A DNA stretch of 64,000 nt from Nostoc carneum NIES-2107. Its GTDB lineage: Bacteria; Cyanobacteriota; Cyanobacteriia; Cyanobacteriales; Nostocaceae. Every line of letters begins with the position of its first letter. The first letter of the stretch is position 1. The position numbers and the translations under genes were made by a program. A model generated the notes under the pieces. It had not been told where the DNA came from. It was given only the letters and a program-made list of their open reading frames with translations, and did not search any database. Shown piece by piece: positions 18,016 through 39,299 of this stretch. The stretch lies in NCBI GenBank assembly GCA_002368155.1, contig AP018180.1:682001-746000 (forward strand), in the 5' to 3' direction.

Positions 18016-18047
18016 TTGCATAAGTTCACCCTCCTCAGAAATATAAG
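18016..18047 (+). promoter_or_regulatory. Shared upstream motif, copy 1 (before the sigma-like operon)
   Basis: TTGCAT (18016-18021) and TATAAG (18042-18047) are 20 bases apart. The full element reads TTGCATAAGT, then TCACCCTCCT, then CAGAAA, then TATAAGGAA. The same arrangement with the same 20-base gap occurs before the second TpsA gene (28867) and the histidine kinase (36823). It may be a promoter or an activator site. Confidence 0.6.
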
Positions 18048-18117
18048 GAAATAGAGTCACAGATACTCAGCAAATTGCTTTTCCTGAAAGGAGGTGAAAA
18101 AATTGAGAGTAATTTAG
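18025..18117 (+). promoter_or_regulatory. Leader with sequesterable Shine-Dalgarno site and four-codon frame
   Basis: AAAGGAGGTGA (18087-18097) is a near-perfect Shine-Dalgarno sequence. It sits 8 bases before a TTG (18103) that is in frame with the downstream sigma-like gene but reaches TAG after four codons (18115-18117). TTCACC plus CTCCT (18025-18035) can pair with AGGAGGTGAA (18089-18098) with one bulge and would hide the site. The annotated GTG start at 18139 has no ribosome-binding site of its own. Translational coupling from the mini-frame or a structural switch is possible. Confidence 0.45.
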
Positions 18118-18138
18118 CTGCAATTAACGAAAAATCCC

Positions 18139-19554
18139 GTGGTTCAATCATCAAAATACTGGGAATTTGTCAAGTTAGATTCTACAAGTAAGCGCCGGGT
18201 GGAAATGATAGTAGCGGCTCAAACTTATTTTCAAAAAGAATTTGCCGGCAAGGGCGATGTTTCTGATGCGGCGATCGCACGTTATCTGTGGCAACAAATG
18301 CAACAAGATAAGGCGGGTGCTACTGAAGAAGCTAACTTAGCGGAAATTTGTTTGCGGTGCTATGTATCTCAGCAAATATATCGAGTTTGTCTGGATTTGA
18401 CGATGAAGTTTGGCAATCGCCACGGCTTTACTAGTGAGGATTTGTTGCCTTTTGTTTTAGATGACCAAGTCATAGAAGCAACTTCCGATAAACCCAGAGT
18501 CCGCAAATCCACTTATGAGTCTTTAGCTACCAAGCTTTTAAAAACATTCGATCCGGCTAAAGGTTCCTTAAATGCGTGGGTGAGTCGCTATGTGAAGCAG
18601 AATGCAGAAATCAAGCGATTTTTACTCCAGCATGGTGTATTTTTGATTAGCGATTGGGCGCTGTTGAATGATACGAACCCGAAGGAATTACAACGCATTC
18701 TCGCGGATATGTATCACTTAACGCCGATGGAGATTGAGCAAGTTTGCCAATTGTTAATCAGTTATCACGCAGTTTACCGTGAAGACCGCTTGCAACAAAA
18801 ACTGGCGGGGGTAAACCTACCCTGTCAAATCCCGACAGCAGAACAGTTAACTCGCATGATCAATGATTTGCAAAGCCGCACAAATCGCAAGCTGAGTCAG
18901 GAAGCGATGTTAAACCAATTGCAAGCAATGGCTAGCAAACTGAGACAATACCGGATTGCGGCGCAAGGCGGTTATGTTGCGTCAGTTGCTTACGATCAAC
19001 CGGAGATTCAACCGATTGTAGAGCGATCGCTCTTAACCGAGGAAGGGGATGACAAAGCTGATTTTATGAATTTATATCAAGAAGAATTTTTGACATCCTT
19101 AGACGCAGCTATTTCTCATGTGGTAGAGGTTGCTCTTGGTAAACTGCAAAGTAAGCGCAATACTAGTCAAGAAATAAAGCGATTATTTATGACTGGTTTA
19201 CATCTTTTTCATTGCCAAGGTCAACCGATGAGCCAAATCGCACCGCAATTGGGAATGAAGAAACAATATGAAGTTACCCGGTTATTAAAGTTAAATGAAC
19301 TACGCGCTGATATTCGCCAAAGTATGTTGCTGATTTTACGCGATCGCGTTTTACAAATAGCCAAAGATTTTACTAATGTTGAACGCTTGCAACTTTTAGA
19401 TCAACAGTTGGAATTAATTTTAGATGAACAAATTTCTGGAGTGATGCAAGAAGCTGAATCTGAAGTGAAAAACCCTGTACGCAATCAGCCTTTATCTGGT
19501 CTTTTAGCTCGTCGTCTTTGCCTTTATTTAGATAATAGAGAGGAGATAGGATAA
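18139..19554 (+). CDS. Sigma-70-like / HTH regulator heading the CHAT-CHASE2 operon
   Basis: This 471-residue cytoplasmic protein has a region resembling sigma region 2 (YESLATKLLKTFDPAKGSLN followed by AWVSRYVKQNAEIKRFL, about 133-165). It ends with a helix-turn-helix resembling region 4 (QPMSQIAPQLGMKKQYEVTR, about 363-382). The middle is Leu/Gln-rich and helical. Related proteins precede DUF1822 and CHAT genes in other cyanobacteria, from memory. The start is uncertain. GTG at 18139 lacks a ribosome-binding site. A TTG at 18103 with an excellent site is in frame but blocked by a TAG. The first internal ATG is near codon 24. It probably controls its own operon, but true sigma activity is not established. 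Confidence 0.6.
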   Translation: MVQSSKYWEFVKLDSTSKRRVEMIVAAQTYFQKEFAGKGDVSDAAIARYLWQQMQQDKAGATEEANLAEICLRCYVSQQIYRVCLDLTMKFGNRHGFTSEDLLPFVLDDQVIEATSDKPRVRKSTYESLATKLLKTFDPAKGSLNAWVSRYVKQNAEIKRFLLQHGVFLISDWALLNDTNPKELQRILADMYHLTPMEIEQVCQLLISYHAVYREDRLQQKLAGVNLPCQIPTAEQLTRMINDLQSRTNRKLSQEAMLNQLQAMASKLRQYRIAAQGGYVASVAYDQPEIQPIVERSLLTEEGDDKADFMNLYQEEFLTSLDAAISHVVEVALGKLQSKRNTSQEIKRLFMTGLHLFHCQGQPMSQIAPQLGMKKQYEVTRLLKLNELRADIRQSMLLILRDRVLQIAKDFTNVERLQLLDQQLELILDEQISGVMQEAESEVKNPVRNQPLSGLLARRLCLYLDNREEIG

Positions 19555-19624
19555 AGATTATTTAGACTCAAAAAATCAACATACAAATACTATATTTCCA
19601 TATCTTATTAATTTTATTTGTTAA

Positions 19625-19652
19625 CTTTTGACCCTTGACCCTTGACTCTTGA
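19625..19652. repeat. TTGACCC/TTGACTC heptanucleotide repeat
   Basis: About four 7-base units (TTGACCC, TTGACTC and variants) end directly at the DUF1822 start codon. Similar TTGACTC runs occur within 17644-17667 and at 49080-49110. The position is unusual, because the repeat occupies the place of a ribosome-binding site. Confidence 0.8.
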
Positions 19653-19654
19653 CC

Positions 19655-20953
19655 ATGATTAACCAACCTACCTCATATTTAGATTTCACAGATTACCCTG
19701 ATTGGTATTCGCTTAACGAAACTCGCACGGAATTATTACCAGAACATTTTCAACGCGCTGCAAGTTTAAGCCAATCAATTCATTTTTCTCAACAACGCTG
19801 GCAAGTCTATCTATGTGCGTTAGGTGTTCTAGGATTTGAACAATGGCTAAAACAACGCGCATCTGATTTAGAAGTTAATATTAATTCTGCTTCTATTTGG
19901 CAAGCAGCAACAGCAGATTTATTATCAGCAGCTTGTAATATTCAAGTGGGCACTTTCAAAATTTGTATTATCACTGCTAGCGTTTTAACAGATGAACATC
20001 GGGTTCCTAATGCAGTTTTTGATATTCCCAATTTTGCTGCTCATTTTTATGTGCTGATGCAGGTAGAAGAGGAACAAAATCAGGTAGCTGTATCTGGTTT
20101 TATGAACTATGAGCAATACCAAAGATATCAAGCTACTGCACAGTTACCTGTAGCAGAAGATTGGACTTATACTTTACCACAACTCTGGTTTAATCCAGAT
20201 GCTAACGATTTATTACTTAATTTACGCTGTTTAAATTCAGACGCTATTAAACTACCTCTAACATCACGACCAACTAATTCCACACCTTTAAAACAAAAGT
20301 TAACAACCATAAAACCACAACTGCAAAAACAGCAGCCTTGGGAATTACTCACGGTGGGTGAAGGGATAACGTTATTGAGTAATCCAGAATTAATAAATTG
20401 GGTTCACAAAGCTGCTAATCCTTCCTTAATTCAACCATTAATTAATGTCTGTTTATGGTTAAATAATCAAATAGACCAAGCTGCTCAAGAGTTGGGATGG
20501 ATGCTGATGCCATTACCCGCATTTTCGCAATTACGCTCTTCACAATTACGCTCTTTGCAAGATGATTTCGAGCAAATTCGTGCCGGATTAGAACAGCAAG
20601 GTGTTTATATTCCTAACACTGCGCGGGGTGCATTTCGTGATTTGGATTGTGAAGAAGGGAGTTTGCGATTATATGCAATTATGTGGGTGTTATCGGAAGA
20701 TTCTGCTAACCCCGAATGGATGTTGTTAGTTGCTGTAGGTTCTCAACCAGAAAGACCTATGCCACATACATTAACATTAGAGGTACGTGATGAAACACAG
20801 ATATTATTTGATGAAACTTTACCAGATACCAGCTTAGGAATTCTTTACGCTCAAGTTATTGGCGATTGGAACGAAAAATTTTGGGTAACCGTCGTTACTG
20901 ATGAGGTTGTCTTTGAAATTCCACCTTTTGGTTTGGAATTACAAACCCTGTAG
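19655..20953 (+). CDS. DUF1822 family protein
   Basis: This 432-residue protein is read from an ATG at 19655. A TTG two codons earlier is also possible. The N-terminal part has QRAASLSQSIHFSQQRWQVY, LCALGVLGFEQWLKQR and SACNIQVGTFKICII, the pattern I know for DUF1822. The C-terminal third is beta-rich (ELGWMLMPLPAF, RAFRDLDCEEG-like stretch, LEVRDETQILFDE) and resembles a small sandwich domain. No signal peptide or transmembrane helix is visible, so it is probably cytoplasmic. It lies between the sigma-like gene and the CHAT-CHASE2 gene on the same strand, a conserved order in cyanobacteria. Its biochemical role is unknown. Confidence 0.8.
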   Translation: MINQPTSYLDFTDYPDWYSLNETRTELLPEHFQRAASLSQSIHFSQQRWQVYLCALGVLGFEQWLKQRASDLEVNINSASIWQAATADLLSAACNIQVGTFKICIITASVLTDEHRVPNAVFDIPNFAAHFYVLMQVEEEQNQVAVSGFMNYEQYQRYQATAQLPVAEDWTYTLPQLWFNPDANDLLLNLRCLNSDAIKLPLTSRPTNSTPLKQKLTTIKPQLQKQQPWELLTVGEGITLLSNPELINWVHKAANPSLIQPLINVCLWLNNQIDQAAQELGWMLMPLPAFSQLRSSQLRSLQDDFEQIRAGLEQQGVYIPNTARGAFRDLDCEEGSLRLYAIMWVLSEDSANPEWMLLVAVGSQPERPMPHTLTLEVRDETQILFDETLPDTSLGILYAQVIGDWNEKFWVTVVTDEVVFEIPPFGLELQTL

Positions 20954-21089: not shown

Positions 21090-23504
21090 ATGAAACTTAA
21101 CTCTGATATTTTTAATCTAAAAGTTCAAAAAATCGAGCAAATTTGTTTATTTGAACTATCTTGGGGCAAAGGGCAAAGATTAACTGCACAGGTTAATTAT
21201 CCTTCTGCCCTTGGTCAGTTGTATCAAGACTGGCGACGGGCATATTTAAACTTTTATCGTTCCGATCAAATGCGCGGACGGGCGGTTGATGGTGGTATTG
21301 CGAGGCTGGGGATAGATTGGCACGCGGAACTGGTAAAGGCGGAAACTAAATTAATGTACGAGTTTCATCGCTGGTTACGCAGTGCTGAATTATATGAAAT
21401 TCGCGCCCAAATTGCTCAAGTTAGCCAACAACTAGTAAAGGAAAATCCCGAAACGGATGAGGCGGTGCAAGTATTTCTGACCTGTGCGCCTGTGGAATTG
21501 GATCGTTTTCCTTGGGAAGCTTGGGAATTAGGAACTGAATTTGCCACAACTGGGGCGATTCAATTTATCCGCACTCCCTTAAATATTTCACAGGAAACAA
21601 ATTCACATCATCCTGATAAACGTCAAGGACGCACCCGGATTCTGGCAATTTTAGGTGATGACACCGGGTTAGATTTTCAAGAAGAAAAGAAGACTTTAAA
21701 TTCGCTGTTCCGGATTGCTGATATGGAGTTTGTCAGTTGGAAGCTAGAAGAAACACCCACGGAAATTATCGAGAAAATTGCCGATGCGATCGCAGATGAA
21801 CGCGGTTGGGATGTGTTATTTTTCGCGGGACACAGCAACGAAACGGAAATGACAGGCGGAGAATTGGGGATTGCGCCTGGCGTGTCCATTTCCATTAGCG
21901 AAATTGCATCGCAACTCAGCGCCGCCAGAAAACGCGGACTGCAAGTAGCAATTTTTAATTCCTGTAGCGGGTTAAATCTGGCAGAATCCTTAATTGACTT
22001 AGGTTTTGGGCAAGTTGTGGTGATGCGCGAACCAATTCACAACCGCGTCGCCCAAGATTTTTTAGTGAGGTTTTTGCAAGGGTTAGGCAAACACCAGAAT
22101 GTCTACGAAGCGGTGATTGCGGCTAGGCAATATTTACGCATGGATAAAAGCCACACCTACCCCTCAGCCTACCTTTTACCTTCATTATTCTGTCATCCAG
22201 GCGCTCACCTCTACCGCATTCCCCCCTTCCATTGGCGACAACGTCTGCGTCAAAGTATACCTAACCGCTTAGAGGCGATCGCCTTAACGGTGGGTGTCTT
22301 GTGTAGTGTGCTAACACCCATGCAATCACTGCTATTAGATGGACGCACCTATACTCAGGCAGTTTACCGCAGTGCTACTGGCCAAGTTGATGCGGAAGAA
22401 GCCCCACCCGTGGCTTTGGTGCAAATTGATACCGAATCAATCTATCGCGCCCAGTTGCCAAATTCCCAACTATTCCCCATGAACCGCAGTTATCTTGCCA
22501 AACTGCTGGATAGTACACGCAAATTAAATGCTTCAGTTGTCGGGTTAGATTTTATTTTTGATACACCCCAAACCGATCCGCCAAAGGCTGATGCAGATTT
22601 AGCTACAGCAGTGCGTCAGGCGGTGGATGCGAAGACATGGTTAATGTTTGCGGCGGTACAAGAACCCAAAAGAGAAGTGGGGACAAACGAAGCATTAGGG
22701 ATTAACAAGTGGAATTGGACATTGCAAGGATACATTGATGCTTACCCCGACTTACTAGAATTCCCAGAAGCCGACAGCGATTGTCGTCAAGTTTGTCCCT
22801 TTGCATATTTGCTATCGCTGGTACAGCTAGCTAAGCAAGAAATCACCGATTTACCCCAACCGCAAACCAACCGCGAGCAAAATTTACGAGCTGAATTCTT
22901 GGATGTGGTGCAGCAGCATTCAACAAAAGGGAACTTATCAAAATTATGGCAATGGAAAGCACCATTTAATATTCAACCAATTCTCGATTACTCAATTCCT
23001 CCCAGCCAAGTTTATACAACAATTCCCGCTTGGCAATTAATCGAAAATCCCGATATCAACAAATTTCCTTTAGTGTCCAAACAGGTAGTTTTGATTGCGG
23101 TGGGTAACGATGACAGGTTAGGAATAGCACCAGGACAACCAGATCGTTCCCCAGCGCCAGCTGCATACAGTTATTGGACACAACAGCCTTGGCTGACAGG
23201 CGGTGAAACATTGGCATATATGATTCACCATTTTGTTAGCAATCGTTTGGTAATTCCCATCCCCAGCATTTTGCTGATTGGGATTGCCATGATTCTTGGT
23301 AAAATCACGGTCTTCGTGATTAAAAGCCAATCGCGTTTAAGTCTCACGCGTCGTCGGCAAATCACCTTCGGCGCAGTCGGTGCTGTAATTTTATATGGTT
23401 TAGTGGGACTGCAAATTTATATAACAGCCGCAATTTTACTACCCTGGTTTTTACCCTCGTCGGTGTTTTTAGCCTACGTTTTACCAGCTACAAGGAGAAA
23501 ATAA
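21090..23504 (+). CDS. Membrane CHAT-CHASE2 caspase-like protein
   Basis: This 804-residue protein has an N-terminal region (1-130), then a CHAT peptidase domain (about 135-380) with the His-Cys pair H248 in FFAGHSNE and C292 in FNSCSGLN. A transmembrane segment lies at about 397-415, followed by a CHASE2 domain at about 425-715 (VALVQIDTESIYRAQLPNSQ, VVGLDFIFDTP, KQVVLIAVGNDD). Two or more transmembrane helices lie at about 730-800. The likely topology puts the caspase-like domain in the cytoplasm and CHASE2 outside, so an external signal may gate proteolysis. The DUF928-like gene starts 2 bases after the stop, implying translational coupling. Substrate and ligand are unknown. Confidence 0.88.
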   Translation: MKLNSDIFNLKVQKIEQICLFELSWGKGQRLTAQVNYPSALGQLYQDWRRAYLNFYRSDQMRGRAVDGGIARLGIDWHAELVKAETKLMYEFHRWLRSAELYEIRAQIAQVSQQLVKENPETDEAVQVFLTCAPVELDRFPWEAWELGTEFATTGAIQFIRTPLNISQETNSHHPDKRQGRTRILAILGDDTGLDFQEEKKTLNSLFRIADMEFVSWKLEETPTEIIEKIADAIADERGWDVLFFAGHSNETEMTGGELGIAPGVSISISEIASQLSAARKRGLQVAIFNSCSGLNLAESLIDLGFGQVVVMREPIHNRVAQDFLVRFLQGLGKHQNVYEAVIAARQYLRMDKSHTYPSAYLLPSLFCHPGAHLYRIPPFHWRQRLRQSIPNRLEAIALTVGVLCSVLTPMQSLLLDGRTYTQAVYRSATGQVDAEEAPPVALVQIDTESIYRAQLPNSQLFPMNRSYLAKLLDSTRKLNASVVGLDFIFDTPQTDPPKADADLATAVRQAVDAKTWLMFAAVQEPKREVGTNEALGINKWNWTLQGYIDAYPDLLEFPEADSDCRQVCPFAYLLSLVQLAKQEITDLPQPQTNREQNLRAEFLDVVQQHSTKGNLSKLWQWKAPFNIQPILDYSIPPSQVYTTIPAWQLIENPDINKFPLVSKQVVLIAVGNDDRLGIAPGQPDRSPAPAAYSYWTQQPWLTGGETLAYMIHHFVSNRLVIPIPSILLIGIAMILGKITVFVIKSQSRLSLTRRRQITFGAVGAVILYGLVGLQIYITAAILLPWFLPSSVFLAYVLPATRRK

Positions 23505-23506
23505 TC

Positions 23507-24262
23507 ATGTTTAAAATTAATAATCGCAAGTCACTTTTGGGCTTTGCACTCATTCCTTTAGCGATCGCTTCCGGTAGTATCGTCAGTGAAAACCTTGCCA
23601 ACGCTCAAAATATTCGGCAAACACAACAAACCATCGCGCAATCTGTCGATTGGGTAGGCTTATTTTGGCAACGTCGCCCCAAAAAACGCCTAGCCTCTAG
23701 AGGTGTAGTGCAACCAGTCTGTGCAATTTCTCCTGGTTTAGTAGAAACATATAAATTGTGGAGCGATCGCCCTTTATTTTTATGGCACAGTCCTGGTAAT
23801 AATCAAGATGCTCAAGTAGTTGTCCGCGATTACGAAACTGAAAAAGTAGTTTGGCAAAAATCCGTCAAAATCGCCGATCAACAAGCTACTTACGATGCTG
23901 AAAAGCCTTTAGAACCAGGCAAATTCTACCAATGGCAACTATCCGGTAGCAACAACTGGACAACATTTCAGGTAATGGAAGCAAGCGATCGCCAAAAAAT
24001 TCAAAGCGGATTGCAAGCATTAGAACAACAGCTGAAATCAGCTAAAGCCTCACCAGAAGAAATCGCTTTGAAAAAAGCTGATTTCTTTATCAACTACGAA
24101 ATTCAACACACAACTGAAACGGGAACATTTCACCCTTGGTCTGATGCTTTCCAAATTCTTTACCAAGTAGAAAAACCTTCTACATCTTTTGTGAAACAAC
24201 GTGCTGACTTTGTTTCTAATGTCTGTAAACCAGCATCAGCAGCGCGAAATCAAGCTAAATAA
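23507..24262 (+). CDS. Secreted DUF928-like protein coupled to CHAT-CHASE2
   Basis: This 251-residue protein has a signal peptide (FALIPLAIASGSIVSENLANAQ). The middle (about 60-160) is beta-rich, with RGVVQPVCAISPGLVETYKL, RPLFLWHSPG, VVWQKSVKI and PGKFYQWQLSG. It resembles the DUF928 protein at 9896-10630 in layout: Cys, then P-x-FLW/FY, then a Y-x-W strand. The C-terminal part is helical (QALEQQLKSAKASPEEIALK). The gene follows CHAT-CHASE2 with a 2-base gap and an AAGGAGAAAAT ribosome-binding site inside the previous gene's end. It probably works with the extracytoplasmic CHASE2 domain. Assignment to DUF928 itself is uncertain because overall identity looks low. Confidence 0.6.
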   Translation: MFKINNRKSLLGFALIPLAIASGSIVSENLANAQNIRQTQQTIAQSVDWVGLFWQRRPKKRLASRGVVQPVCAISPGLVETYKLWSDRPLFLWHSPGNNQDAQVVVRDYETEKVVWQKSVKIADQQATYDAEKPLEPGKFYQWQLSGSNNWTTFQVMEASDRQKIQSGLQALEQQLKSAKASPEEIALKKADFFINYEIQHTTETGTFHPWSDAFQILYQVEKPSTSFVKQRADFVSNVCKPASAARNQAK

Positions 24263-24950
24263 TGCATAATTCGTAATTCGTAATTAACTTTAGTGATATC
24301 TCATCGTTCGCGTAATCGATTCTGAAAATAAAGAATTCATCAAAATGCTTAAAAGGCTTACAACAAAAGGATTAATCGCATCAAACTTTTATCCATATAC
24401 CCTGTAGACGCGTGCTTAGTCCACAGTGCGATGACGGTGCGATCGCACCGATACATTCAGATTCCTACTGAAATCTTTGAGGGAAATCGGGTAAGTGTAA
24501 GCTTTCTATTCTGATTACCAACGCCAAAGCTATATATAGTAGGAATTTCATGGTTTTTTGGGAATTAATTATTTCCGATTTGGATTACGCGAATGGTGAG
24601 TGATATATCTAAACTATGTTTAATTGCTAATTACAAATATTTTCTCCAGAAAAATTCTCTTATTAGGACACAGCAATGCTGTGTCCTATTTTGATCATGA
24701 ATGGTTTACAAATTTAATAAACCTGAATAATTAGGAATCATTGCACCTCTGACTATTTATTAAGTATGCAAATTAATTATATGCTTACCAAGTTGGCTAA
24801 AAAAATTTTTAAAGTAATTATCAAGCTAAAATCATCATTTATTTAAAACCCATATATTATTTTTATGAAATTATTATGAATTACTAGTATTAATACTGGC
24901 ATAGCTATATATTATTTATAGTTTTCTGTAATTTACCAGTATTAATAAAA
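24263..24950. other. Intergenic region of 688 bases
   Basis: No coding frame is convincing here. The region is AT-rich, particularly after 24700, and contains the terminator at 24664-24692. The GCGATCGCACC around 24430-24450 is part of a short palindromic stretch. Promoter elements for the gene at 24951 probably lie in the AT-rich part but I cannot assign them. Confidence 0.6.
24664..24692 (+). terminator. Rho-independent terminator after the CHAT-CHASE2 operon
   Basis: TAGGACACAGC (24664-24674) and GCTGTGTCCTA (24678-24688) form a perfect 11-bp stem with a 3-base loop, followed by TTTT. It lies about 400 bases after the DUF928-like stop and would end the sigma-DUF1822-CHAT-DUF928 transcript. 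Confidence 0.7.
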
Positions 24951-25898
24951 ATGAAAAAGATTGCAGCAGTATTTTCTCTTGCAGTGGGTTTATTGTGTTT
25001 ATTTTCAGAGAATGCTCAAGCTCAAAGAAGACCAGTTAATGTCTATTCTCAAATGGGACAAAATAAGCAAGAAATTTACGAGCAATTTAATTTAGTAGAT
25101 ACAACCATAGATGGCAATAGTATAAACGATACTAATGATTCTCAAAATATAGGCCTTTTTCGAGGAGCAATAGAACAATATAGAAGCCGTAAGCTTAATA
25201 GCGTTCTGGGAATAGCTTGTTCTAAAAGCCTTGTAGATAACTTTCTACCCGAAAATCCAGATGAATGGACAGATACCTTCAAAAACTCAACTTGTGGAAA
25301 AGCTATAATCAATAACATTAAAAAGCCAGAATATTACTTTGATAATTCTGGCTTTCTTATCACCTTAAAACCAAATGAAGTTGATGATCTTCGTGATAGT
25401 CTTCCTGATAGTCTTAAAACTCAATTTCCTACCGTTGATCTTGAGTCTGAATATATAGGTGATGGAGATTTAGAAGCTAGATTTATTTCCGGTAATACGT
25501 TAGACAATACCACGGATACTATAGTTTATAGTCTTTTAATAAAAGGCCAAACCATTCCTTCGTTTACTCTTCAGTATAAATTAGACCTTTCTACTGACTT
25601 TGGTTTTAACATAGACGAAGACTTTGTTGTCAATGCTGTCAATAATTTGGAATTTATTTTAGACAAAGATTTGTTAAGTAAAGTTGTATCAGACCCAGAA
25701 AATCCCGCTATAGTACCAGACCCAAAAAATCCCACTATAGTTTCTCCAAGAAGCACTTTATTAATACAAAACTTCTTTGAAAAAGATATAAAAAGCGTAC
25801 CCGAATCTCCCTTAACACCTAATGTATTTGCGACAGTAGTATTGGGTGTAATTTTGTTCATAAAAAAGCGCAAAATGTCAGCAAATCAGAGTCTTTGA
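24951..25898 (+). CDS. Secreted hypothetical protein with probable PEP-CTERM sorting signal
   Basis: This 315-residue protein has a signal peptide (MKKIAAVFSLAVGLLCLFSE with ENAQAQ cleavage). The body is acidic and rich in Asp, Asn and Ser, with two Cys near 84 and 105. A short repeat, VSDPENPAIVPDPKNPTIV, lies before the tail. The C-terminus has the three-part layout of a PEP-CTERM signal: VPES, a hydrophobic segment (NVFATVVLGVILFI) and the basic KKRKM. The motif is PES rather than PEP, so it is a variant. Exosortase would then process it for surface delivery. It sits between the CHAT operon and the TpsA genes. The body matches no family I know. Confidence 0.65.
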   Translation: MKKIAAVFSLAVGLLCLFSENAQAQRRPVNVYSQMGQNKQEIYEQFNLVDTTIDGNSINDTNDSQNIGLFRGAIEQYRSRKLNSVLGIACSKSLVDNFLPENPDEWTDTFKNSTCGKAIINNIKKPEYYFDNSGFLITLKPNEVDDLRDSLPDSLKTQFPTVDLESEYIGDGDLEARFISGNTLDNTTDTIVYSLLIKGQTIPSFTLQYKLDLSTDFGFNIDEDFVVNAVNNLEFILDKDLLSKVVSDPENPAIVPDPKNPTIVSPRSTLLIQNFFEKDIKSVPESPLTPNVFATVVLGVILFIKKRKMSANQSL

Positions 25899-28866: not shown

Positions 28867-28898
28867 CTGCATAAGTTACACCTCCTCAGAAATACTGA
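28867..28898 (+). promoter_or_regulatory. Shared upstream motif, copy 2 (before TpsA2)
   Basis: CTGCAT (28867-28872) is followed after exactly 20 bases by TACTGA (28893-28898). Between them are AAGTTACACCTCCT and CAGAAA, nearly identical to the copy at 18016. It lies 73 bases before the TpsA2 start. Its absence before TpsA1 suggests the two exoprotein genes are controlled differently. Confidence 0.6.
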
Positions 28899-28939
28899 TA
28901 GTGTGAGTTCTATGTAGCCTATAACCCCAGCAATCAGCG

Positions 28940-31900: not shown

Positions 31901-33172
31901 TCCTCAGATTTAGTGGAAATTGTTGGTCGATCTTCAGATGATTTATTTGGTAGCTTTCTAACAACTGGGACATCGGGATCTGGCAATGCTGGAAATTTAA
32001 GCATTACAACTCATCGCCTCAGCCTCAGCAATGGGGGATATATTAATACAACTACAGGTGGTGCAGGGCGAGGCGGTAATATTGATATCAACGCCACCAA
32101 CTCTGTGGAAATCTTGGCAAACCCAGCAGACATAGATTTAGCTGATGGCATATTTACATCAACTGGTGGTGCTGGTAATGCTGGAGACGTAACAATTCGC
32201 ACCCAAAGCCTCAGCATCCAAAATGGAGGGGTAGTTAGTGCAAGTACAGCCCCAGAAAGCACAGGGCAAGGTGGTAATGTTACTATTAATGCTTCTGATG
32301 CCGTTGAAGTTGTTGGGATTTCAAATGATGGTCTTCTTCCCAGCTTCATCTCAGTTCGTAGCCGAGGTGCGGGACAAGCCGGAGATATCACAGTAAATTC
32401 ACCACTCATCAGTTTGAAAGATCAGGGTGCAATTAATGCAGAATCTTTTGCTAATGATGGTGGGAATATTAGCCTGAATACTAATCTCTTGTTGCTGCGC
32501 CGTGGTGGTAATATTTCTGCAACCGCAGGTAATCAACAAGCTGGTGGCAATGGCGGTAATATCACTATCAATTCACCCTTTATTGTCGCTTTACTTAATG
32601 AAAACAGCGATATTAGCGCTAATGCCTTCACTGGTAAAGGTGGTAATGTTAATATTAATGTGCAAAATATTTTTGGAACTGAAGCACGTCCCCAGCAGAC
32701 AAATCAAAGTGATATCACTGCAAGTTCTGAATTAGGCGTACAGGGACAAATCACTATTTCTCAGCCAGATATTCAGCCGCCACAAAAACTGCTGGAACTT
32801 CCTACAGGATTAATTGACGCTACTACTCAATTTGCTCAAATTTGCCCTAGAGACTACAATGCAAAACCTTTGGGTTCATTTGTCGTTACTGGACGCGGTA
32901 ATTTACCACCTAATGTTTTGGAACCACTGGCTTTGACAACTAGCCTTAGTCCCTTAGCTAGTTTGGATGGGGAAAACGCTGATACTAAATTGCAGCGAGT
33001 TGTAGAGACTGACGCAGAGATGCGAGTCAAGGAAGATTTGGGAAATTCTTCACAAATTGTTGAGGCGCAAGGGTTAGTGAAAACGGCTGACGGTAATATT
33101 ATGCTGGTTGCCGAAGTACCAACAGCAACACCTGCTGGTATTAGTAGTTCTGCGATGTGTCCAAAATCTTAG
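28940..33172 (+). CDS. Two-partner-secretion exoprotein TpsA2 (filamentous haemagglutinin type)
   Basis: This 1410-residue protein has an extended basic N-terminus (VKRRRIKRANCDR) before a signal peptide core (ILCSLIFFSSAPAYSQ), like the extended signal region of type V proteins. The TPS domain follows: INPDNTLGAESSRVTPNVL, NLFHSFSEFNI, NLFLINPNGILFG. The body is a beta-helix with about eight long repeats of roughly 75 residues, each carrying GQGGNLTVNASDSVEVVG and related text. The C-terminus matches TpsA1 (RPQQTNQSDITASSEL, QICPRDYNAKPLG, SAMCPKS). It is probably exported to the cell surface by a TpsB encoded elsewhere. It carries its own copy of the shared upstream motif and is followed convergently by a toxin-antitoxin pair. 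Confidence 0.92.
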   Translation: MNQIQNWLQGNCVLVKRRRIKRANCDRTSFHEGFWRILATISLQPKLILCSLIFFSSAPAYSQINPDNTLGAESSRVTPNVLINGANADKIDGGAVRGSNLFHSFSEFNINDGQRVYFGNPAGVQNILTRVTGGQASNILGTLGVDGIANLFLINPNGILFGQNARLDIHGSFVGTTANALQLGNQGIFSATNPEAPPLLTVNPSALLFNQINPNSITNRSRFSETNAANTALFSPEQGSRFLVGGNIIFDGGQLGVLNNRLELGGLAAVGSVELIGSGNEMQLSFPENVSKADITFQNNAAAVTTGGSPITVNAHNLSLSNNSLIAIFLAEGQGKVDITSGELIINARGTVSLDDKSYLVNLGLQNSLGDTGNIAINAKSIRLSNGSQISTDGERNQGNIRLNALEDITLDSNSFVSTFGSQDSIGKTGDITVNARKINLSNRAAINSGNIGQGQGGKIILQAHDSISLSSRAGIFSSSGASIFGGVNNQPSGDIEIRARTLSLDGEYTTISSRNFDEGQAGNIQIITDDSISLNGYAIVTSSVTGQGNGGDIQLQTRALTLSNGGRIDTLTSGGGNSGNLLINASDSVALSGTTTVVNPRTGESFITGSWLGTNSQGSGNSGKLTINTGRLSIRDGGDITTNSFVDQSGRGGDLTINARDSVEVVGNTPDGRASSKIRSSTFGSGDAGNMTITTPRLSMREGGSVSAGAFSTGRGGNLTINASDLVEVVGVSPDGQVFSDIFAGTTGSGDAGNMTINTNRLIISGGALVGTDTRTSSTGQGGNLTVNASDSVEVVGTSPDSKIFSRLTASTSGAGNAGNMTINTNTMSIRDGALVGTNTFLASQGQGGNLTVNALNSVEVVGTSSNDQFSSILTTSTGGSGNAGNLIINTRFLSIRDLGIVSATAISGSTGNGGNLTVNASDSVDVIGVSADGEFSTVLTTATSGTGNAGDLNINTRRLSILDGGFVSTAAAEKITGQGGNLTINSSDLVEIVGRSSDDLFGSFLTTGTSGSGNAGNLSITTHRLSLSNGGYINTTTGGAGRGGNIDINATNSVEILANPADIDLADGIFTSTGGAGNAGDVTIRTQSLSIQNGGVVSASTAPESTGQGGNVTINASDAVEVVGISNDGLLPSFISVRSRGAGQAGDITVNSPLISLKDQGAINAESFANDGGNISLNTNLLLLRRGGNISATAGNQQAGGNGGNITINSPFIVALLNENSDISANAFTGKGGNVNINVQNIFGTEARPQQTNQSDITASSELGVQGQITISQPDIQPPQKLLELPTGLIDATTQFAQICPRDYNAKPLGSFVVTGRGNLPPNVLEPLALTTSLSPLASLDGENADTKLQRVVETDAEMRVKEDLGNSSQIVEAQGLVKTADGNIMLVAEVPTATPAGISSSAMCPKS

Positions 33173-33493: not shown

Positions 33494-33495
33494 TC

Positions 33496-33747: not shown

Positions 33748-33841
33748 ATTTCAATTTGAAAATATAACTACAATGTCAATTTTATCAAAACTGATTTCAT
33801 GTTTTTATCTCACGCAGAGGCGCAGAGGCGCAGAGAGGAGT

Positions 33842-36478
33842 ATGAGGAAGATTAAAAAGTTTGTGGTGTTGATGGCGATCGCAGTTTTATTATCCGTGAC
33901 ATCGCCAGGGTTAGCGCAAGTGATAAATATTGCTCAAGTTCCTAGTTTATCTGTGGAACAGCAGGCGCGAAATTCCTACGCTAAAGGGCAGTTTGCAGAG
34001 GCGGCGCAGTTATTTCAACAAGCAGCTAAAGGTTATCAAGCAGCTAAAGAACCCATCCTGCAAGCGTTGAGTTTGAGTAATCTATCGCTGTGTTATCAAC
34101 AGTTGGGACAGTGGGATGATGCGAACCGGGCAATTACAGAAAGTGTTGATATTTTAAATACTATAAAAGATGCAAAAGCTGAGAAATCATTGGCTTTAGC
34201 TCAAGCTTTAGATATTCGAGGTGGGTTACAATTAGCACGCGGTCAAGCTGAGGCGGCTTTGAAATCGTGGGAGGGTGCGACATCTTTATATAGTCAGTTG
34301 CAAAAACCAAGTAAGGCACTGACAAGTCAAGTTAACCAAGCACAGGCTTTCCAAAATTTAGGTCTTTATAAAAAAGCAATTTCTCTACTAGAAACAGCGT
34401 TAAAGTTACCGCAGATTTCTAATAGTAAGACTGAACAAATCAAACCTTTATTAGAAAAAGTAGCTGCAACACCAGAAACAGCAACAGCATTGCGAACTTT
34501 GGGTGAGTCGCTGCGGGTTGTGGGGAATTTCCCCCAAGCAAATTTAATTTTGTCACGCAGTTTAGCGATCGCACAGCAGTTAAAGTTAGCTGAAATCGTT
34601 ACTCTCAACCAAATCAGCCTCGGTAATCTCACCCGCGCGCAAATCAGCTTGAATAAGGCTAACAAGACTGAGATTGATCCTCAGACTGCAATCAATTACT
34701 ACCAACAAGCTGCCGCATCTGGAATCCCAGATTTAAAAGTGCAAGCGCAAGTAAATCAACTCAGCTTGCTGGTGGAGACGAAGCAGTTAGATGCAGCCAA
34801 AGCATTGTTACCACAAGTACAACAACAAATTGCAGCGCTACCTGCTAGTCGGAGTGCGATCGCCTCACGGGTAAATTTGGCGCAAACAATGATCCAAATG
34901 CAAAAGCAAGCGGTTGAGCAGATTAATTGGGAAGAAGTCGCTAAACTGCTGGCAATAGCGGTACAACAAGCTAAAGATTTGGGAGATGTACGGATACAAG
35001 CTGATGCCATAGGTAGCTTAGGTCACCTTTACGAACAAACAAAACAATGGGCAGATGCAGAAAAATTAACTCAACGAGCAGTGCAATTAGGGCAACAAAT
35101 TAACGCCGGAGATATCGCCTATCGTTGGCAATGGCAATTAGGTAGAGTGTTGGCAGCCCAAGGGAAAAATAATAGTGCGATCGCAGCTTACAAAGAAGCT
35201 GTGAGTACCATTAAATCCCTGCGTGCAGACTTAGCCGCCGCTAATCCCGATTTGCAATTTTCCTTCCGCGAAGCAGTTGAACCAATTCACCGTCAACTCG
35301 TCGCCTTACTTGTAGACTCCAATCAAAAAGATAATTTAAAGACAGCGCGAGATGTCATTGAAGGATTGCAATTAGTCGAACTCGATAACTTTTTCCGAGA
35401 AGCTTGTCTCAACGGTAACCCTGCACAAGTAGATCAGGTTGATACAAAAGCCGCAGTCATTTACCCGATTATTTTAGAAAATCAACTAGCGATTATTGCC
35501 AGCTTACCCAATTCCCAAAACAAAGCCGAAACGAAAGATAGCCGTGATTTTCGCTATTATAAAACCCCTATCAGCAGGAAAGATATTGAGACGCGAGCAT
35601 CTGACCTCCGCAGAAGTCTGAACGAAAACACAGTTATGGATCTGGCGCTGCCCAGACTGCAAAAAATGTATGATTTAGTAGTTCGTCCAGCAGCAGACGA
35701 CTTAGCCGCCAGTAAGGTAGAGACATTGGTATTTGTCTTAGATGGAGTGTTGCGGAATATTCCCATAGCAGCGCTGCATGATGGTAAACAATACCTTGTA
35801 GAGAAATACAGCATAGCCCTGACACCAGGACTACAATTATTAGCACCGCGATCGCTCAAACAAGAACGCTTAGGAGCCTTGGTAGGTGGACTGAGTGAAG
35901 GGCGTTCGGGATTTGAAGCCCTACCCAATGTTGAGCAAGAAGTCGAAAAAATTCAATCGGAACTACCTTCTCAAGTCCTGATTAACGAAAATTTTACTAG
36001 TTCTGGTTTCCAGTCGAAAATTTCTGCTGTTTCCTTCCCCATTGTCCACTTAGCAACCCACGGACAATTTAGTTCCCAAGCCGATGAAACATTTATTCTC
36101 ACCTGGGATGGCAAAATTAAAGTTAACGAACTCAGCGGTGTATTAAAAACAGTCGAAGTATCTCGCAGCAACTCCTTGGAACTCCTAGTACTCAGCGCTT
36201 GCGAAACAGCCGCAGGTGATGATCGTTCCGCCCTAGGATTAGCCGGTGTAGCAGTACGTTCTGGCGCACGCAGTACAGTAGCAACACTCTGGCGCGTTGA
36301 CGATGAAGCCACAGCCAAACTCATGAGCAACTTTTACGATCAACTAGTGAAAGCCAAGGAAACAGGTATTTCCAAAGCCGAAGCCCTACGACTTGCCCAA
36401 GTTGCCATTTTAAAGAACCCAGACTATCAATCACCCTACTTCTGGGGAGCTTTTGTATTGCTAGGGAATTGGACTTAA
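33842..36478 (+). CDS. Exported TPR-CHAT caspase-like protease
   Basis: I take the ATG at 33842, preceded by AGAGAGGAG, giving 878 residues. The frame stays open to 33773, but that part reads through a CGCAGAGG repeat. The N-terminus is a clear signal peptide (MRKIKKFVVLMAIAVLLSV, then GLAQ). TPR-type helices fill about 35-480, including NSYAKGQFAEAAQLFQQAAK and LYEQTKQWADAEKLTQRAVQ. The CHAT domain (about 590-875) has catalytic H740 in VHLATHGQF and C787 in LLVLSACETAAGDD, and SYFWGAFVL-like QSPYFWGAFVLLG at the end. An exported caspase-like protease next to TpsA genes suggests it acts on surface or periplasmic proteins, though the target is unknown. Confidence 0.9.
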   Translation: MRKIKKFVVLMAIAVLLSVTSPGLAQVINIAQVPSLSVEQQARNSYAKGQFAEAAQLFQQAAKGYQAAKEPILQALSLSNLSLCYQQLGQWDDANRAITESVDILNTIKDAKAEKSLALAQALDIRGGLQLARGQAEAALKSWEGATSLYSQLQKPSKALTSQVNQAQAFQNLGLYKKAISLLETALKLPQISNSKTEQIKPLLEKVAATPETATALRTLGESLRVVGNFPQANLILSRSLAIAQQLKLAEIVTLNQISLGNLTRAQISLNKANKTEIDPQTAINYYQQAAASGIPDLKVQAQVNQLSLLVETKQLDAAKALLPQVQQQIAALPASRSAIASRVNLAQTMIQMQKQAVEQINWEEVAKLLAIAVQQAKDLGDVRIQADAIGSLGHLYEQTKQWADAEKLTQRAVQLGQQINAGDIAYRWQWQLGRVLAAQGKNNSAIAAYKEAVSTIKSLRADLAAANPDLQFSFREAVEPIHRQLVALLVDSNQKDNLKTARDVIEGLQLVELDNFFREACLNGNPAQVDQVDTKAAVIYPIILENQLAIIASLPNSQNKAETKDSRDFRYYKTPISRKDIETRASDLRRSLNENTVMDLALPRLQKMYDLVVRPAADDLAASKVETLVFVLDGVLRNIPIAALHDGKQYLVEKYSIALTPGLQLLAPRSLKQERLGALVGGLSEGRSGFEALPNVEQEVEKIQSELPSQVLINENFTSSGFQSKISAVSFPIVHLATHGQFSSQADETFILTWDGKIKVNELSGVLKTVEVSRSNSLELLVLSACETAAGDDRSALGLAGVAVRSGARSTVATLWRVDDEATAKLMSNFYDQLVKAKETGISKAEALRLAQVAILKNPDYQSPYFWGAFVLLGNWT

Positions 36479-36494: not shown

Positions 36495-36674
36495 TACATT
36501 AACAATGTGACCCCATACAATCGCAATGTATGTCGATACATTAACAATGTGACCCCATACAATCACAATGTAAATCGATACATTAACAATGTGACCCTAT
36601 ACAATTGCTATGTAAATCGATGCATTAACAATGTTACGCGATACAATCGCAATGTAAGTCGATACATTAACATT
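36495..36674. repeat. Tandem repeat, 42-bp unit, four full copies and a part
   Basis: TACATTAAC or a one-base variant recurs at 36495, 36537, 36579, 36621 and 36663, always 42 bases apart. Each unit also holds CAATGTGACCCCATACAAT and CAATGTAA-type sequence, with ACATT/AATGT arms that can fold. Units differ by a few bases. It starts 16 bases after the TPR-CHAT stop codon. 42 bases is 14 codons, so the minus strand has a repeating frame, but no gene is evident. Confidence 0.95.
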
Positions 36675-36753: not shown

Positions 36754-36790
36754 AATTACCAATTACCAATTACCAATTACCCATTACCAA
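36754..36790. repeat. TTACCAA heptanucleotide repeat
   Basis: About five copies of the 7-base AATTACC unit, preceded by GGGAGCA heptamers (about 36725-36748). This is the same short-repeat family as 3824-3893. It separates the 42-bp array from the histidine kinase promoter region. Confidence 0.9.
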
Positions 36791-36822
36791 ACACCCAATG
36801 CCCCATGCCCCATTCCCCAATA

Positions 36823-36854
36823 TTGCATAAGTCTCCCCCACCCAGAACTATAAG
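36823..36854 (+). promoter_or_regulatory. Shared upstream motif, copy 3 (before the histidine kinase)
   Basis: TTGCAT (36823-36828) and TATAAG (36849-36854) are 20 bases apart, with AAGTCTCCCCCACC and CAGAAC between. TATAAGGAA and TTAG follow, as in copy 1 at 18016. It lies 62 bases before the TTG start at 36885, which has a GGAGGG site (36873-36878). Confidence 0.6.
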
Positions 36855-36884
36855 GAATTAGCTGAAAGTTACGGAGGGATTACC

Positions 36885-37823
36885 TTGTTAGAAGATTTGT
36901 ATACACCGGAACAACTCAGTCAGATGCATCAGCAGTTGTGGCAGTGCGTCTTGGAATTTGCTAATCTTTCAGCCGCGCAAGAACGTAACCGCATTGCGCG
37001 AGAGTTACATGATTCTCTCGGACACGCCCTCACAGCACTGAACATTCAATTACAAACAGCCAGTAAACTTTGCAAACCCGATCCCAATCAAGCCCAAGAG
37101 TTTCTGGATGAAGCACATAAATTAGTTGCGATCGCAACTCAAGAAGTTCGCCAATCTGTGAAAGCTTTACGCAGCGATCCTCTAGCTGGCAAATCTCTCG
37201 AAACCCTGATTGAATCTTTAGTACGGGATTTTCATCTAACCACTGGGATTGTACCGGAAGTGGAGATGAATTTAGCGATCGCTTTATTACCTCAGTTTAC
37301 TGCTCCCCTTTATCGCATTATCCAAGAAGCACTCAACAATATTCGTAAATATGCCCAAGCAACGGCAGTACAAATTCATCTTTCCACAACAGCAAATGGA
37401 GTTTATTTAACCATTCAAGATAACGGACGGGGATTTGATGCCCAAAAAGTAGCCAATGGTTACGGATTGCGGGGAATGCAAGAACGCATCGCCGTTTTAC
37501 AAGGACATTTTCAATTAGTATCGCAGCCTGGAGCAGGTTGTTGCATAACCGTTGAAATCCCTATGCAAATATATAATATCCACGACATAACTAATAATTT
37601 AGGTGCAATTCGGGAACTACCACAACTCCCACAAATGCCTCATACATTAAATGAAATACCCGAAATACCACAAATACCTCAAATACAAGAAATATCAAAC
37701 ATATCACTAATACCTGAAATATCCATTCCCCAAGAACCCAAGCCAATACTCCAATACCAGCAAGTAACAATTGGTGAATGGCAACCGCTCAATTTACATG
37801 AATGGCTAGAAGATAGGGGGTAG
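36885..37823 (+). CDS. Soluble NarL-type (HisKA_3) histidine kinase
   Basis: This 312-residue kinase starts at TTG with GGAGGG six bases upstream. The dimerisation domain carries the phospho-acceptor H42 in RIARELHDSLGHALTALNIQ. The ATPase domain has the N-box (QEALNNIRKYAQA) and G-boxes (QDNGRGF, NGYGLRGMQERI). There is no transmembrane segment or sensor domain before the His, so the input must come from a partner. After the catalytic core (about residue 230) an unusual tail repeats IPEIPQIPQIQEIS-like text. A membrane protein resembling only the dimerisation domain (38132-38587) and a NarL-type response regulator (38646-39299) follow, probably forming one circuit. Confidence 0.9.
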   Translation: MLEDLYTPEQLSQMHQQLWQCVLEFANLSAAQERNRIARELHDSLGHALTALNIQLQTASKLCKPDPNQAQEFLDEAHKLVAIATQEVRQSVKALRSDPLAGKSLETLIESLVRDFHLTTGIVPEVEMNLAIALLPQFTAPLYRIIQEALNNIRKYAQATAVQIHLSTTANGVYLTIQDNGRGFDAQKVANGYGLRGMQERIAVLQGHFQLVSQPGAGCCITVEIPMQIYNIHDITNNLGAIRELPQLPQMPHTLNEIPEIPQIPQIQEISNISLIPEISIPQEPKPILQYQQVTIGEWQPLNLHEWLEDRG

Positions 37824-37853
37824 GGACTGGGGATTGGGGACTGGGGACTGGGG

Positions 37854-37968
37854 AATGAGTAATGAGTAATGAGTAATGAGTAATGAGTAATGAGTAATGA
37901 GTAATGAGTAATGAGTAATGGGAAAAATCTCTATTACCAATTACCAATTACCAATTACCAATTACCAA
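37854..37968. repeat. Heptanucleotide repeats (AATGAGT, then TTACCAA)
   Basis: Nine and a half copies of AATGAGT (37854-37920) are followed by about five copies of TTACCAA (37934-37968), after a run of GGGGACT-type heptamers (37825-37850). These fill most of the 308-base gap between the histidine kinase and the kinase-like membrane gene, and no gene is seen there. Confidence 0.95.
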
Positions 37969-38131
37969 CCTACAACTTTGGTCTGACTCCCACAGATAAC
38001 CTCATACTTTTTATCTATACCAGCGATTGACTCTCAACTAAAGTAGGAAAAACTTAACAACAGATAGTCAAATAATTAAAATCAGGTTTTAATAATGCAT
38101 ATAACCTTTTGTCAACCAAAGCGCCAAATAT

Positions 38132-38587
38132 ATGATTCCTGTTCTGTTGTTGACCCTAGGGTGCTTGATACTAGTTTGCCAATTAGTAAACGCACTATCA
38201 ATATATCGAGAGAAATCTCAACAATTAGTTTTAATTAAAGATAAGAATTATGAATTAATTAATTTGTATAAAGGCTTAGGTCAGTCGATGATGGCTTTAA
38301 ATATCCAACTGCAAGCAGCGCAGAAATTATGGACAGTCAAGCCAATAGAAGCACAAGAATCGCTGACTGAAGCTTACCAATTAAGTGGAGAATTGATGCG
38401 AGAAGTCCGACAAATTGTCAGAAGCATGGATACAGTAAATACTGTAGTTTGCTTAGAGTCAAACCCAAGCCAAAACATCCAAAATTGTTGGACTTACTTT
38501 ATTCAACCCACCTATGAAAAATCTGATATACTGCCCAATATCAGGCTTTTAGTCTCAGAAAAAAAGAAAATTACCCATGACCAATAA
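38132..38587 (+). CDS. Membrane-anchored histidine-kinase-like dimerisation protein lacking the His
   Basis: This 151-residue protein has an N-terminal transmembrane helix (MIPVLLLTLGCLILVCQLVN). Residues 41-100 align with the dimerisation domain of the kinase at 36885: INLYKGLGQSMMALNIQLQ against RELHDSLGHALTALNIQLQ, and EVRQIVRSM against EVRQSVKAL. Tyr46 takes the place of the phospho-acceptor His, and the adjacent Asp is Lys. There is no ATP-binding domain; the tail is short and unlike HATPase. It is therefore unlikely to be a kinase. It could recruit the soluble kinase to the membrane as a heterodimer or block it, or it could be a decaying paralogue. The open frame and neat spacing to the response regulator (58 bases) favour a working protein. 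Confidence 0.7.
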   Translation: MIPVLLLTLGCLILVCQLVNALSIYREKSQQLVLIKDKNYELINLYKGLGQSMMALNIQLQAAQKLWTVKPIEAQESLTEAYQLSGELMREVRQIVRSMDTVNTVVCLESNPSQNIQNCWTYFIQPTYEKSDILPNIRLLVSEKKKITHDQ

Positions 38588-38645
38588 CAAAATATTTAAC
38601 TTTTGTAATTGGTCTCTACAATCTTAAAACCCAAAATCCAAAATT

Positions 38646-39299
38646 ATGATGATTCGCTTATTACTTGTAGATGACCAAAGTTTAGTTCGCCAAGGTCTGA
38701 AAGCAATGCTGAGTTTAGAATCAGACTTAGAAATTGTGGGTATGGCAGAAAATGGAGAAGAGGCAATTGCACAAGTTGAAAAATTACAACCAGATGTTGT
38801 ATTAATGGATGTGCGAATGCCAGTAATGAATGGTGCTACTGCTACCCGCATCATCTGCGAAAAATTTCCTCAAGTCAAAGTTTTAGTTTTAAGTACTTAC
38901 GATGATGACCATGATGTGAATGAAGCCATTCGCTCTGGTGCAAAAGGTTATCTTTTAAAAGATATGCCTTCAGAAGAACTTGTTAACGCGATTCGCAGCG
39001 TTCATCGCGGATATGCACAACTCGCACCCGGGCTTTTAGAACGAGTGATTATGCAAAAACAAGCCCAACCAACGCCACCTCAACCTGTTCACCCAGCATT
39101 AACTTCATTAACACCAAGAGAATTAGATGTAGCGAAGTTAGTTGCAGTTGGTGCAACGAATCAAGAAATCGCTCAACAGCTATTTATTTCAGAAAGTACA
39201 GTAAAAACCCATATTAATAGCATTTTTAATCGTCTAAATATTAAGAATCGCGCTCAACTAGCGATTTATGCCAATTCTGTTTGTTCACCTGGCTTATAA
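38646..39299 (+). CDS. NarL/FixJ family response regulator
   Basis: This 217-residue protein has a receiver domain (1-120) with acidic D9/D10, phospho-acceptor D55 in VVLMDVRMP, the conserved Thr/Ser in VLVLSTYDDD and the Lys in GYLLKDM. A linker with Gln and Pro follows, then a LuxR-type helix-turn-helix (LTPRELDVAKLVAVGATNQE, ISESTVKTHINSIFNRL). It is a DNA-binding transcription factor and the natural partner of the HisKA_3 kinase two genes upstream. The shared upstream motif before three nearby genes is a candidate target, but no binding data support this. Confidence 0.95.
   Translation: MMIRLLLVDDQSLVRQGLKAMLSLESDLEIVGMAENGEEAIAQVEKLQPDVVLMDVRMPVMNGATATRIICEKFPQVKVLVLSTYDDDHDVNEAIRSGAKGYLLKDMPSEELVNAIRSVHRGYAQLAPGLLERVIMQKQAQPTPPQPVHPALTSLTPRELDVAKLVAVGATNQEIAQQLFISESTVKTHINSIFNRLNIKNRAQLAIYANSVCSPGL

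Follow-up and report, generated by a model that had tools for sequence, protein, structure and literature searches.

EACC2-caspase proteins, whose C-termini vary and can be CHASE2, are described in PMC8195603 (eLife 2021) as often occurring with an extracytoplasmic function (ECF) sigma factor and DUF1822. The paper suggests that signals activate them as autopeptidases within networks of apoptosis and immunity. A cluster that is partly similar lies at positions 18016-39299 of a 64-kb stretch (C1:682001-746000; hereafter the window) of the 9.36-Mb genome of a Nostoc-type cyanobacterium, where 18016 is the first base of the first copy of a shared promoter-like element. The likeness to EACC2-caspase systems rests on a sigma-like gene, DUF1822, and a caspase-like protein with a C-terminal CHASE2 domain. 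Unlike in those systems, two-partner secretion (TPS) exoproteins, an exported protein with TPR and CHAT domains (TPR-CHAT), a two-component operon, and the shared element are tied in. The words "hemagglutinin" and "two-partner" are absent from PMC8195603, as judged by a word search. We assigned the domains of open reading frames (ORFs) by profile matching with Pfam and with NCBIfam (for the latter, all but the second TPS exoprotein, TPS2). No EACC2 model was among the Pfam, NCBIfam, or PADLOC library matches of the window proteins, with TPS2 outside the NCBIfam and PADLOC scans.

Other described systems resemble single parts of the cluster. The exoproteins match the TPS domain of Pfam, and in several relatives TpsB is encoded beside TPS and TPR-CHAT genes, as in two-partner secretion. 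The cluster differs in having no TpsB gene and in having an exported CHAT protein as an extra partner, and the source genome also encodes one TPS-CHAT fusion. HetF of Anabaena is described in the accessible text of PMC8406250 as having a CHAT domain, one transmembrane segment, and TPR. Like HetF, our CHAT-CHASE2 protein is a membrane protein of filamentous cyanobacteria with a CHAT domain, but it contains CHASE2 and has no TPR match, so we rejected its identification as HetF (PMC8406250, in part). In a Trichodesmium metacaspase-CHASE2 protein, whose topology was noted in 2012, a caspase-like domain likewise lies in the cytoplasm beneath a CHASE2 domain outside the cell; that protein is called a metacaspase and treated singly, and no regulon is described in the portion of the paper available to us (PMC3501461). 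Judging by titles and the beginnings of abstracts, we found no paper among those listed from the open literature that links CHAT to two-partner secretion or CHASE2 to CHAT. The front module of the cluster (sigma-like, DUF1822, and CHAT-CHASE2 genes) resembles known systems, and the link to two-partner secretion at the level of a regulon appears to be new. To our knowledge, the cleavage targets of cyanobacterial CHAT proteins are largely unknown. The shared element turns guesses from gene neighborhoods into a list of targets (regulators, TpsA proteins, exported TPR-CHAT proteins, and peptide exporters), and the genes linked to it give a direct handle on the function of bacterial caspase-like proteins.

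The element, YTGCATRAGT-N12-GAAMTA, is present in one copy at the head of each of three blocks of the cluster (Table 1). We found it by aligning the upstream regions of orthologs, where a nearly identical block precedes the sigma-like and kinase genes. A first matrix was built from 12 sites, all upstream of sigma-like or kinase genes, with the TPS sites kept out of training. Across 1.95 Mb of loci and the window, this matrix gave 51 matches of at least 13 bits (the lowest had 16.7 bits, and some sites were counted twice). Most of these matches precede sigma-like, kinase, or TPS genes, which means that TPS promoters were recovered without training; exceptions include matches at loci L123 (see below), L124 (before a 482-amino-acid ORF), and L129 (before a 106-amino-acid ORF). 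At the same threshold, there were no matches in 20 control stretches of 19 kb, chosen arbitrarily from 13 of the 58 genomes that we compared (the source genome included). A refined matrix gave 58 matches of at least 19 bits, followed by scattered ones below 17 bits, and exactly three matches in the window.

Exact copies are rare. There are four in the source genome, three of them in the cluster; if one mismatch is allowed, there are 7 sites (4 exact), versus 1 for the reversed pattern. The 58 genomes together hold 59 exact copies, in 14 genomes, and no copy of the reversed pattern. All 11 genomes with a close front module have the element, versus 3/47 of the others (Fisher 1.6e-9, kinship ignored). 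These three (G158, G160, and G164) have only distant homologs of the sigma-like protein, and 12 further genomes that also have distant homologs only contain no exact copy. The copies in the window are 61-79% similar to each other within the element and 23-33% similar outside it. Because the similarity stops at the edges of the element, it is not part of a longer repeat, and we ruled out a mobile repeat. The significance in the window belongs to the whole bipartite element only: WTTGCATAAG alone was found twice, which was equaled in 21/100 shuffles. A literature search for the letter strings of the element gave no cyanobacterial paper, by title, among those listed, although strings within longer runs of letters would escape it.

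We read the genes after the 59 sites manually and found that 56 of the sites precede genes for regulators, TPS proteins, exported TPR or TPR-CHAT proteins, exporters, or other secreted proteins. Specifically, the element precedes the sigma-like operon (7 sites), the kinase operon (10), TPS genes (14, one of them interrupted by an insertion), genes for exported TPR or TPR-CHAT proteins (16), genes for double-glycine-type peptides or C39-type exporters (8), and one gene for another secreted protein. Among the 16 exported TPR proteins, we saw CHAT in 12 (one frameshifted) and only the N-terminal TPR-type part in the other 4. The labels "exported" and "double-glycine" were given by eye, with Pfam run on a few of these genes. 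The element also lies upstream of the sigma-like gene in the genomes of the same genus, in G174, G172, and G165, and at loci L125, L127, L128, and L129. In G172, it persists at both the sigma-like and the kinase genes despite the ~400 kb between them. Two caspase-like genes lie near element-bearing exporter genes, at L201:9969-11000 (Peptidase_C14 by Pfam) and at L202:5000-6604 (by resemblance only).

Table 1. Features of the cluster, in window coordinates.
Feature	Position	Strand	Remarks
Element copy 1, TTGCATAAGT-N12-GAAATA...	18016..18048	+	Heads the sigma-like operon, 91 bp 5' of the start codon
Sigma-like regulator (candidate), 471 amino acids, GTG start	18139..19554	+	AlphaFold2 model all-helical; no Pfam match
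DUF1822 protein	19649..20953	+	PF08852, 136.8 bits, E 1.3e-39
Membrane CHAT-CHASE2 protein	21090..23504	+	CHAT E 1.6e-11, CHASE2 E 3.6e-18; His and Cys present
DUF928-like exported protein	23507..24262	+	Pfam 24.8 bits; starts 2 bp past the CHAT-CHASE2 gene
Terminator-like hairpin, 11 pairs	24664..24688	+	Ends block 1; hairpin search
PEP-CTERM-like exported protein	24951..25898	+	Not found in sequence retrieved around the cluster's counterparts in 10 related genomes
TPS exoprotein 1 (TPS1)	26057..28792	+	Pfam TPS PF05860, 217.8 bits, E 3.1e-64; TIGR01901
Element copy 2, CTGCATAAGT...GAAATACT	28867..28899	+	41 bp 5' of TPS2
TPS exoprotein 2 (TPS2)	28940..33172	+	Pfam TPS PF05860, 156.6 bits, E 1.5e-45
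Exported TPR-CHAT protease-like protein	33842..36478	+	CHAT 200.8 bits, E 4.3e-59
Element copy 3	36823..36855	+	30 bp 5' of the kinase gene
Soluble HisKA_3 + HATPase histidine kinase	36885..37823	+	Pfam; C-terminal IGEWQPL[ND]L
Membrane kinase-like protein with the dimerization and histidine phosphotransfer (DHp) region only, 151 amino acids	38132..38587	+	Tyr at the position of the phosphoacceptor His
NarL-type response regulator	38646..39299	+	Pfam

The genes of the cluster are also retained together. Close orthologs of the CHAT-CHASE2 protein (at least 63% identity; the next homolog has 47%) are found in 11 of the 58 genomes. Close orthologs of TPR-CHAT (at least 60% identity) and of the kinase (at least 65% identity) are each found in 10, and these are the same 10 genomes, all within the 11; the remaining genome, G165, has the front module only. 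To compare gene order, we mapped the window's proteins onto 19 stretches from these relatives; a 20th, L058, is from the source genome. The order sigma-like gene, DUF1822, CHAT-CHASE2, DUF928-like, TPS, TPR-CHAT, kinase, DHp-only, and NarL is found in all 7 genomes of the same genus (across contig breaks in G150 and G154, and in G152 on a contig that starts at DUF1822). G174, from another genus, has the same order with inserts. The number and identity of the TPS genes between the framing blocks vary among these relatives. In G172 (Calothrix sp. NIES-3974, locus L126), the regulators and TPR-CHAT are all present, with the front module, TPR-CHAT, and the kinase operon apart from each other. When we searched with the CHAT-CHASE2 protein, the closest named relatives found were from Nostoc and Calothrix. 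Among the 11 stretches from named relatives that we found via this protein, 8 contain TPS; 5 of the 11 coincide with contigs of the comparison genomes, and 5 of the other 6 contain TPS. A reading of the window from its sequence alone (the sequence-only reading) had proposed joint retention in gene neighborhoods as a check, and it comes out positive. The blocks are adjacent beyond this strain and, as far as sequence evidence goes, appear to share regulation.

More broadly, TPS and CHAT genes tend to be neighbors. The source genome has 30 TPS matches and 44 CHAT matches. Of these CHATs, 10 have a TPS domain less than 8 kb away, in every case on the same strand; they include one in the same protein as TPS and the CHAT-CHASE2 protein of the window. 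Half of the TPS islands (9/18) have a CHAT within 8 kb. When we rotated the CHATs of contig 1, the observed 9 was reached in 29 of 20,000 trials. The fusion protein has 2,005 amino acids, with a TPS domain, Big_1 repeats, and a C-terminal CHAT (L058:3433-9450, minus strand), and a TpsB gene adjoins it.

We also examined 37 TPR-CHAT neighborhoods from 35 other genomes, picked among the matches listed (mostly the best per genome, with direct orthologs excluded). This choice by similarity favors the subfamily of the window's TPR-CHAT, and several of the neighborhoods are clipped by contig ends. TPS, anywhere in the stretch and on either strand, is present in 25/37 of them versus 1/20 controls, and DUF928 in 24/37 versus 1/20 (the same control stretch). 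CHASE2 (22/37), TpsB (10/37), CHASE2-CHAT (10/37), and DUF1822 (8/37) were not found in any of the 20 controls. At L097, from another genus, DUF1822, CHAT-CHASE2, DUF928, TPS, and TPR-CHAT are all co-directional. Also, four of the 58 genomes have no TPS, and each of these is among the 14 that have no TPR-CHAT of this class (p = 0.0024, kinship ignored). We weighed whether a C-terminal domain that the TPS proteins share could be a CHAT-specific sorting signal and rejected this, as the domain occurs in TPS islands without CHAT as well. One array, L066-L068 (C1:2837757-2881263 of the source genome), holds 12 co-directional TPS genes; it is headed by a TpsB gene and ends in genes for a TPR-CHAT, a DUF928 protein, and CHASE2 kinases.

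Because the order is kept in related genomes and the element is far above controls, the arrangement is more than chance. The shared element at the head of the clustered blocks suggests that these genes are switched on as one program. Joint retention, recurrent neighborhoods, the TPS-CHAT fusion, and the element on three blocks all speak for a single system under shared control. We put the probability at about 0.6 that the cluster forms the center of a regulon dedicated to the secretome, with the sigma-like protein reading the bipartite element. This protein would recognize a promoter, composed of a -35-like TGCATRAGT, 11 nucleotides, and a -10-like AGAAATA, before its own operon. The same promoter would drive the TpsA-type exoproteins with the exported TPR-CHAT and the operon for the kinase, the phospho-dead DHp protein, and NarL. 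We speculate that CHASE2 receives a signal from outside and thereby switches on the CHAT domain in the cytoplasm, and that this domain might then free or activate the sigma-like protein, perhaps via DUF1822. The TpsA proteins might exit through a TpsB encoded elsewhere, and the exported TPR-CHAT, made at the same time, might trim or anchor them, either in the periplasm or on the cell surface; the sequence-only reading had suggested such CHAT-dependent processing of surface proteins. The kinase-NarL branch would supply feedback. The analysis thereby yields a sigma-like protein as candidate regulator, candidate pairs of protease and substrate, and, for a soluble kinase, a conserved membrane partner that is phospho-dead.

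Paralogs of the sigma-like protein bear on which protein reads the element. We examined 20 of the 45 more distant matches listed (31-44% identity); several are near-duplicates, so the number of independent cases is smaller. Within 250 bp upstream, TGCATAAG is found on the forward strand of 8/20 and on the reverse strand of 0/20, and TGCATA is found on the forward strand of 12/20. The spacing is the same in 9 of 10 paralog sites that we compared by eye (leaving out three near-duplicates), and the second half of the element differs between groups of paralogs. TGCATAAG with a kept spacing before the paralogs is the trace that we would expect from autoregulation by a sigma-type factor. The sequence-only reading had called the protein a sigma-like regulator. 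Its AlphaFold2 model is all-helical (pLDDT 67, pTM 0.43), and the four top Foldseek matches to the model, which are weak, are sigma chains (E from 3.6e-3 to 0.71), including 9a50 and the chain-F matches, which we take to be sigma factors. Sigma70_r4 matched weakly in 3 of 22 family members. Still, a sigma fold for this protein is only weakly supported.

Several observations weigh against a regulon read by the sigma-like protein. This protein matches no Pfam or NCBIfam model; profile searches of solved structures gave no sigma match for it, and hhalign against a protein resembling an ECF sigma factor was negative. The best Foldseek match (E 3.6e-3) has a TM-score of 0.18, and no match reaches an E of 0.001. 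Upstream of the paralogs, TGCATA also occurs on the reverse strand in 5/20 cases, and 7/20 have neither TGCATA nor TGCATC. At L123, the element does not directly precede the sigma-like gene but rather a 148-amino-acid ORF 1.4 kb upstream. In the window, the TPS1, PEP-CTERM-like, and TPR-CHAT genes have no element copies of their own, and a toxin-antitoxin-like pair on the minus strand (33188-33747) separates TPS2 from TPR-CHAT. We saw no TPS gene adjoining either the front module or TPR-CHAT in G172, and the window itself has no TpsB. Finally, 3 of the 59 sites (L194, L195, and L200) lack a fitting gene.

It is rather unlikely, in our view, that the element is an operator or promoter for another regulator and that the sigma-like gene is merely one of its targets. 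One candidate is the NarL-type regulator, whose gene lies in the cluster, within an operon that bears the element. However, G165, which has no close ortholog of the kinase, retains both the sigma-like gene and the element. This argues against NarL as the reader, and the sigma-like paralogs carry element variants of their own. Because the kinase-NarL operon itself bears the element, and given G165, the sigma-like protein is the better candidate. The proposal of two-component control thus holds in part: the kinase-NarL operon carries the element but would account for only part of the control. SigJ is another candidate, as the second half of the element resembles the -10 part of its J-Box, GGGaAtacT (PMC6495340). 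In the J-Box regulon of Nostoc punctiforme, too, an alternative sigma factor has a -10-type element of its own, but the two elements differ in sequence and distribution. According to the portion of PMC6495340 available to us, GGG is conserved in the J-Box, its -35 is weak, and sigJ is widely distributed, whereas our element has no GGG and a strong first half and is found in 14/58 genomes. By eye, the GGGaAtacT form (the extended -10 of the J-Box) is in none of the printed element sites.

If the cluster were instead a counter-invader or cell-death module, the exoproteins would be incidental neighbors. The accessible part of PMC8195603, which proposes roles in apoptosis or immunity for EACC2-caspase proteins with CHASE2 C-termini, ECF sigma factors, and DUF1822, points this way. 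Against it, 10 of 11 window proteins have no relevant PADLOC match (TPS2 was outside the scan), the targets of the element are mostly exported proteins and exporters, and neighborhoods with TPS and TPR-CHAT recur, so we think that this is improbable. That the genes are neighbors by descent only, through common ancestry in one genus and with no functional link, seems very improbable indeed. It would fit with 7 of the 9 other genomes with kinase and TPR-CHAT orthologs being from the same genus, with the split blocks of G172 that lack an adjoining TPS, with the lone front module of G165, and with an upstream ABC-HlyD pair that is also kept in G149, G153, and partly G150. On the other hand, this pair was not seen in G148, G154, or G174, where the upstream neighbors differ while the cluster persists. 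Also, in a Rhizonema metagenome-assembled genome (L127), the blocks are reordered yet linked (the sigma-like ORF there is a 102-amino-acid piece), and in another from Leptolyngbya (L128), the front module is followed by TPS genes. The shared element, which is found at unlinked genes too, contradicts descent alone.

The regulon read by the sigma-like protein could also be one case of a wider pattern, and we offer this as a doubtful but possible extension. A divergent family of sigma-like proteins, each with its own TGCATA...AGAAATA variant, might run separate exoprotein programs across cyanobacteria. CHAT-CHASE2 proteins would gate these by proteolysis upon an outside signal and exported TPR-CHATs would mature the TpsA proteins, which would place caspase-like enzymes at both ends of the pathway.

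The ORFs and domains between 18.1 and 39.3 kb were as the sequence-only reading had listed them, by ORF and Pfam analysis. It had placed almost all genes on the plus strand; we add the minus-strand pair. Both CHAT proteins retain the His and Cys, as claimed. After exclusion of five duplicate loci and of matches that were short or scored low, the alignments have both residues in 64/64 TPR-CHAT-type domains and in 26/27 CHASE2-CHAT domains, and the remaining one is a fragment. According to Pfam, a single protein of the front module holds both CHAT (residues 102-375) and CHASE2 (residues 404-735); its AlphaFold2 model (pLDDT 49.5) was too poor for use. The label DUF928-like reflects a weak likeness, as its score is below the Pfam cutoff of 26 bits. 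The hairpin at the end of block 1 is weak evidence, because there are 20 such hairpins in the region versus a mean of 16.9 in shuffles.

Both exoproteins have the N-terminal TPS secretion domain that defines TpsA proteins (PF05860). No TpsB gene is in the window, and all seven ShlB matches in the genome are outside it. The longest TPR-CHAT ORF begins at 33773, but the starts of the orthologs correspond to 33842, which is probably the true start and would give a signal peptide. In-frame stops suspected in TPR-CHAT of G152 and G154 fall outside the 879-amino-acid open frames found there. The pair between TPS2 and TPR-CHAT consists of a ParE/RelE-like protein of 101 amino acids and a partner of 83 amino acids (named by eye), and the corresponding gap in G149 and G150 is only ~76 bp.

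The DHp-only protein was described in the sequence-only reading as kinase-like without the His, and this is borne out. It has one membrane segment and a HisKA_3-like hairpin, and Pfam finds no ATPase domain in it. The phosphoacceptor His is replaced by Tyr in 10/10 orthologs (the position was set by eye with the Pfam match). With neither that His nor an ATPase domain, it does not qualify as a histidine kinase. It had seemed specific to this strain in a first sample without same-genus genomes, but it is kept at 10/10 orthologous loci, so we rejected both that idea and a pseudogene. DivL of Caulobacter, which has Tyr at the phosphoacceptor place, is an analog. The DHp-only protein may tether or inhibit the soluble kinase via mixed dimers. 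In all 10 orthologs, the soluble kinase ends with IGEWQPL[ND]L after a variable linker, and GEWQP followed by L, I, or V is in no other ORF of over 100 amino acids among the loci scanned, so this is possibly a docking motif. Tandem repeats of 42 bp (36495-36672) lie between the TPR-CHAT and kinase genes. Just downstream of the cluster, at 40438-44504, are genes for an NB-ARC protein and then a Ser/Thr kinase with a periplasmic-binding-like domain.

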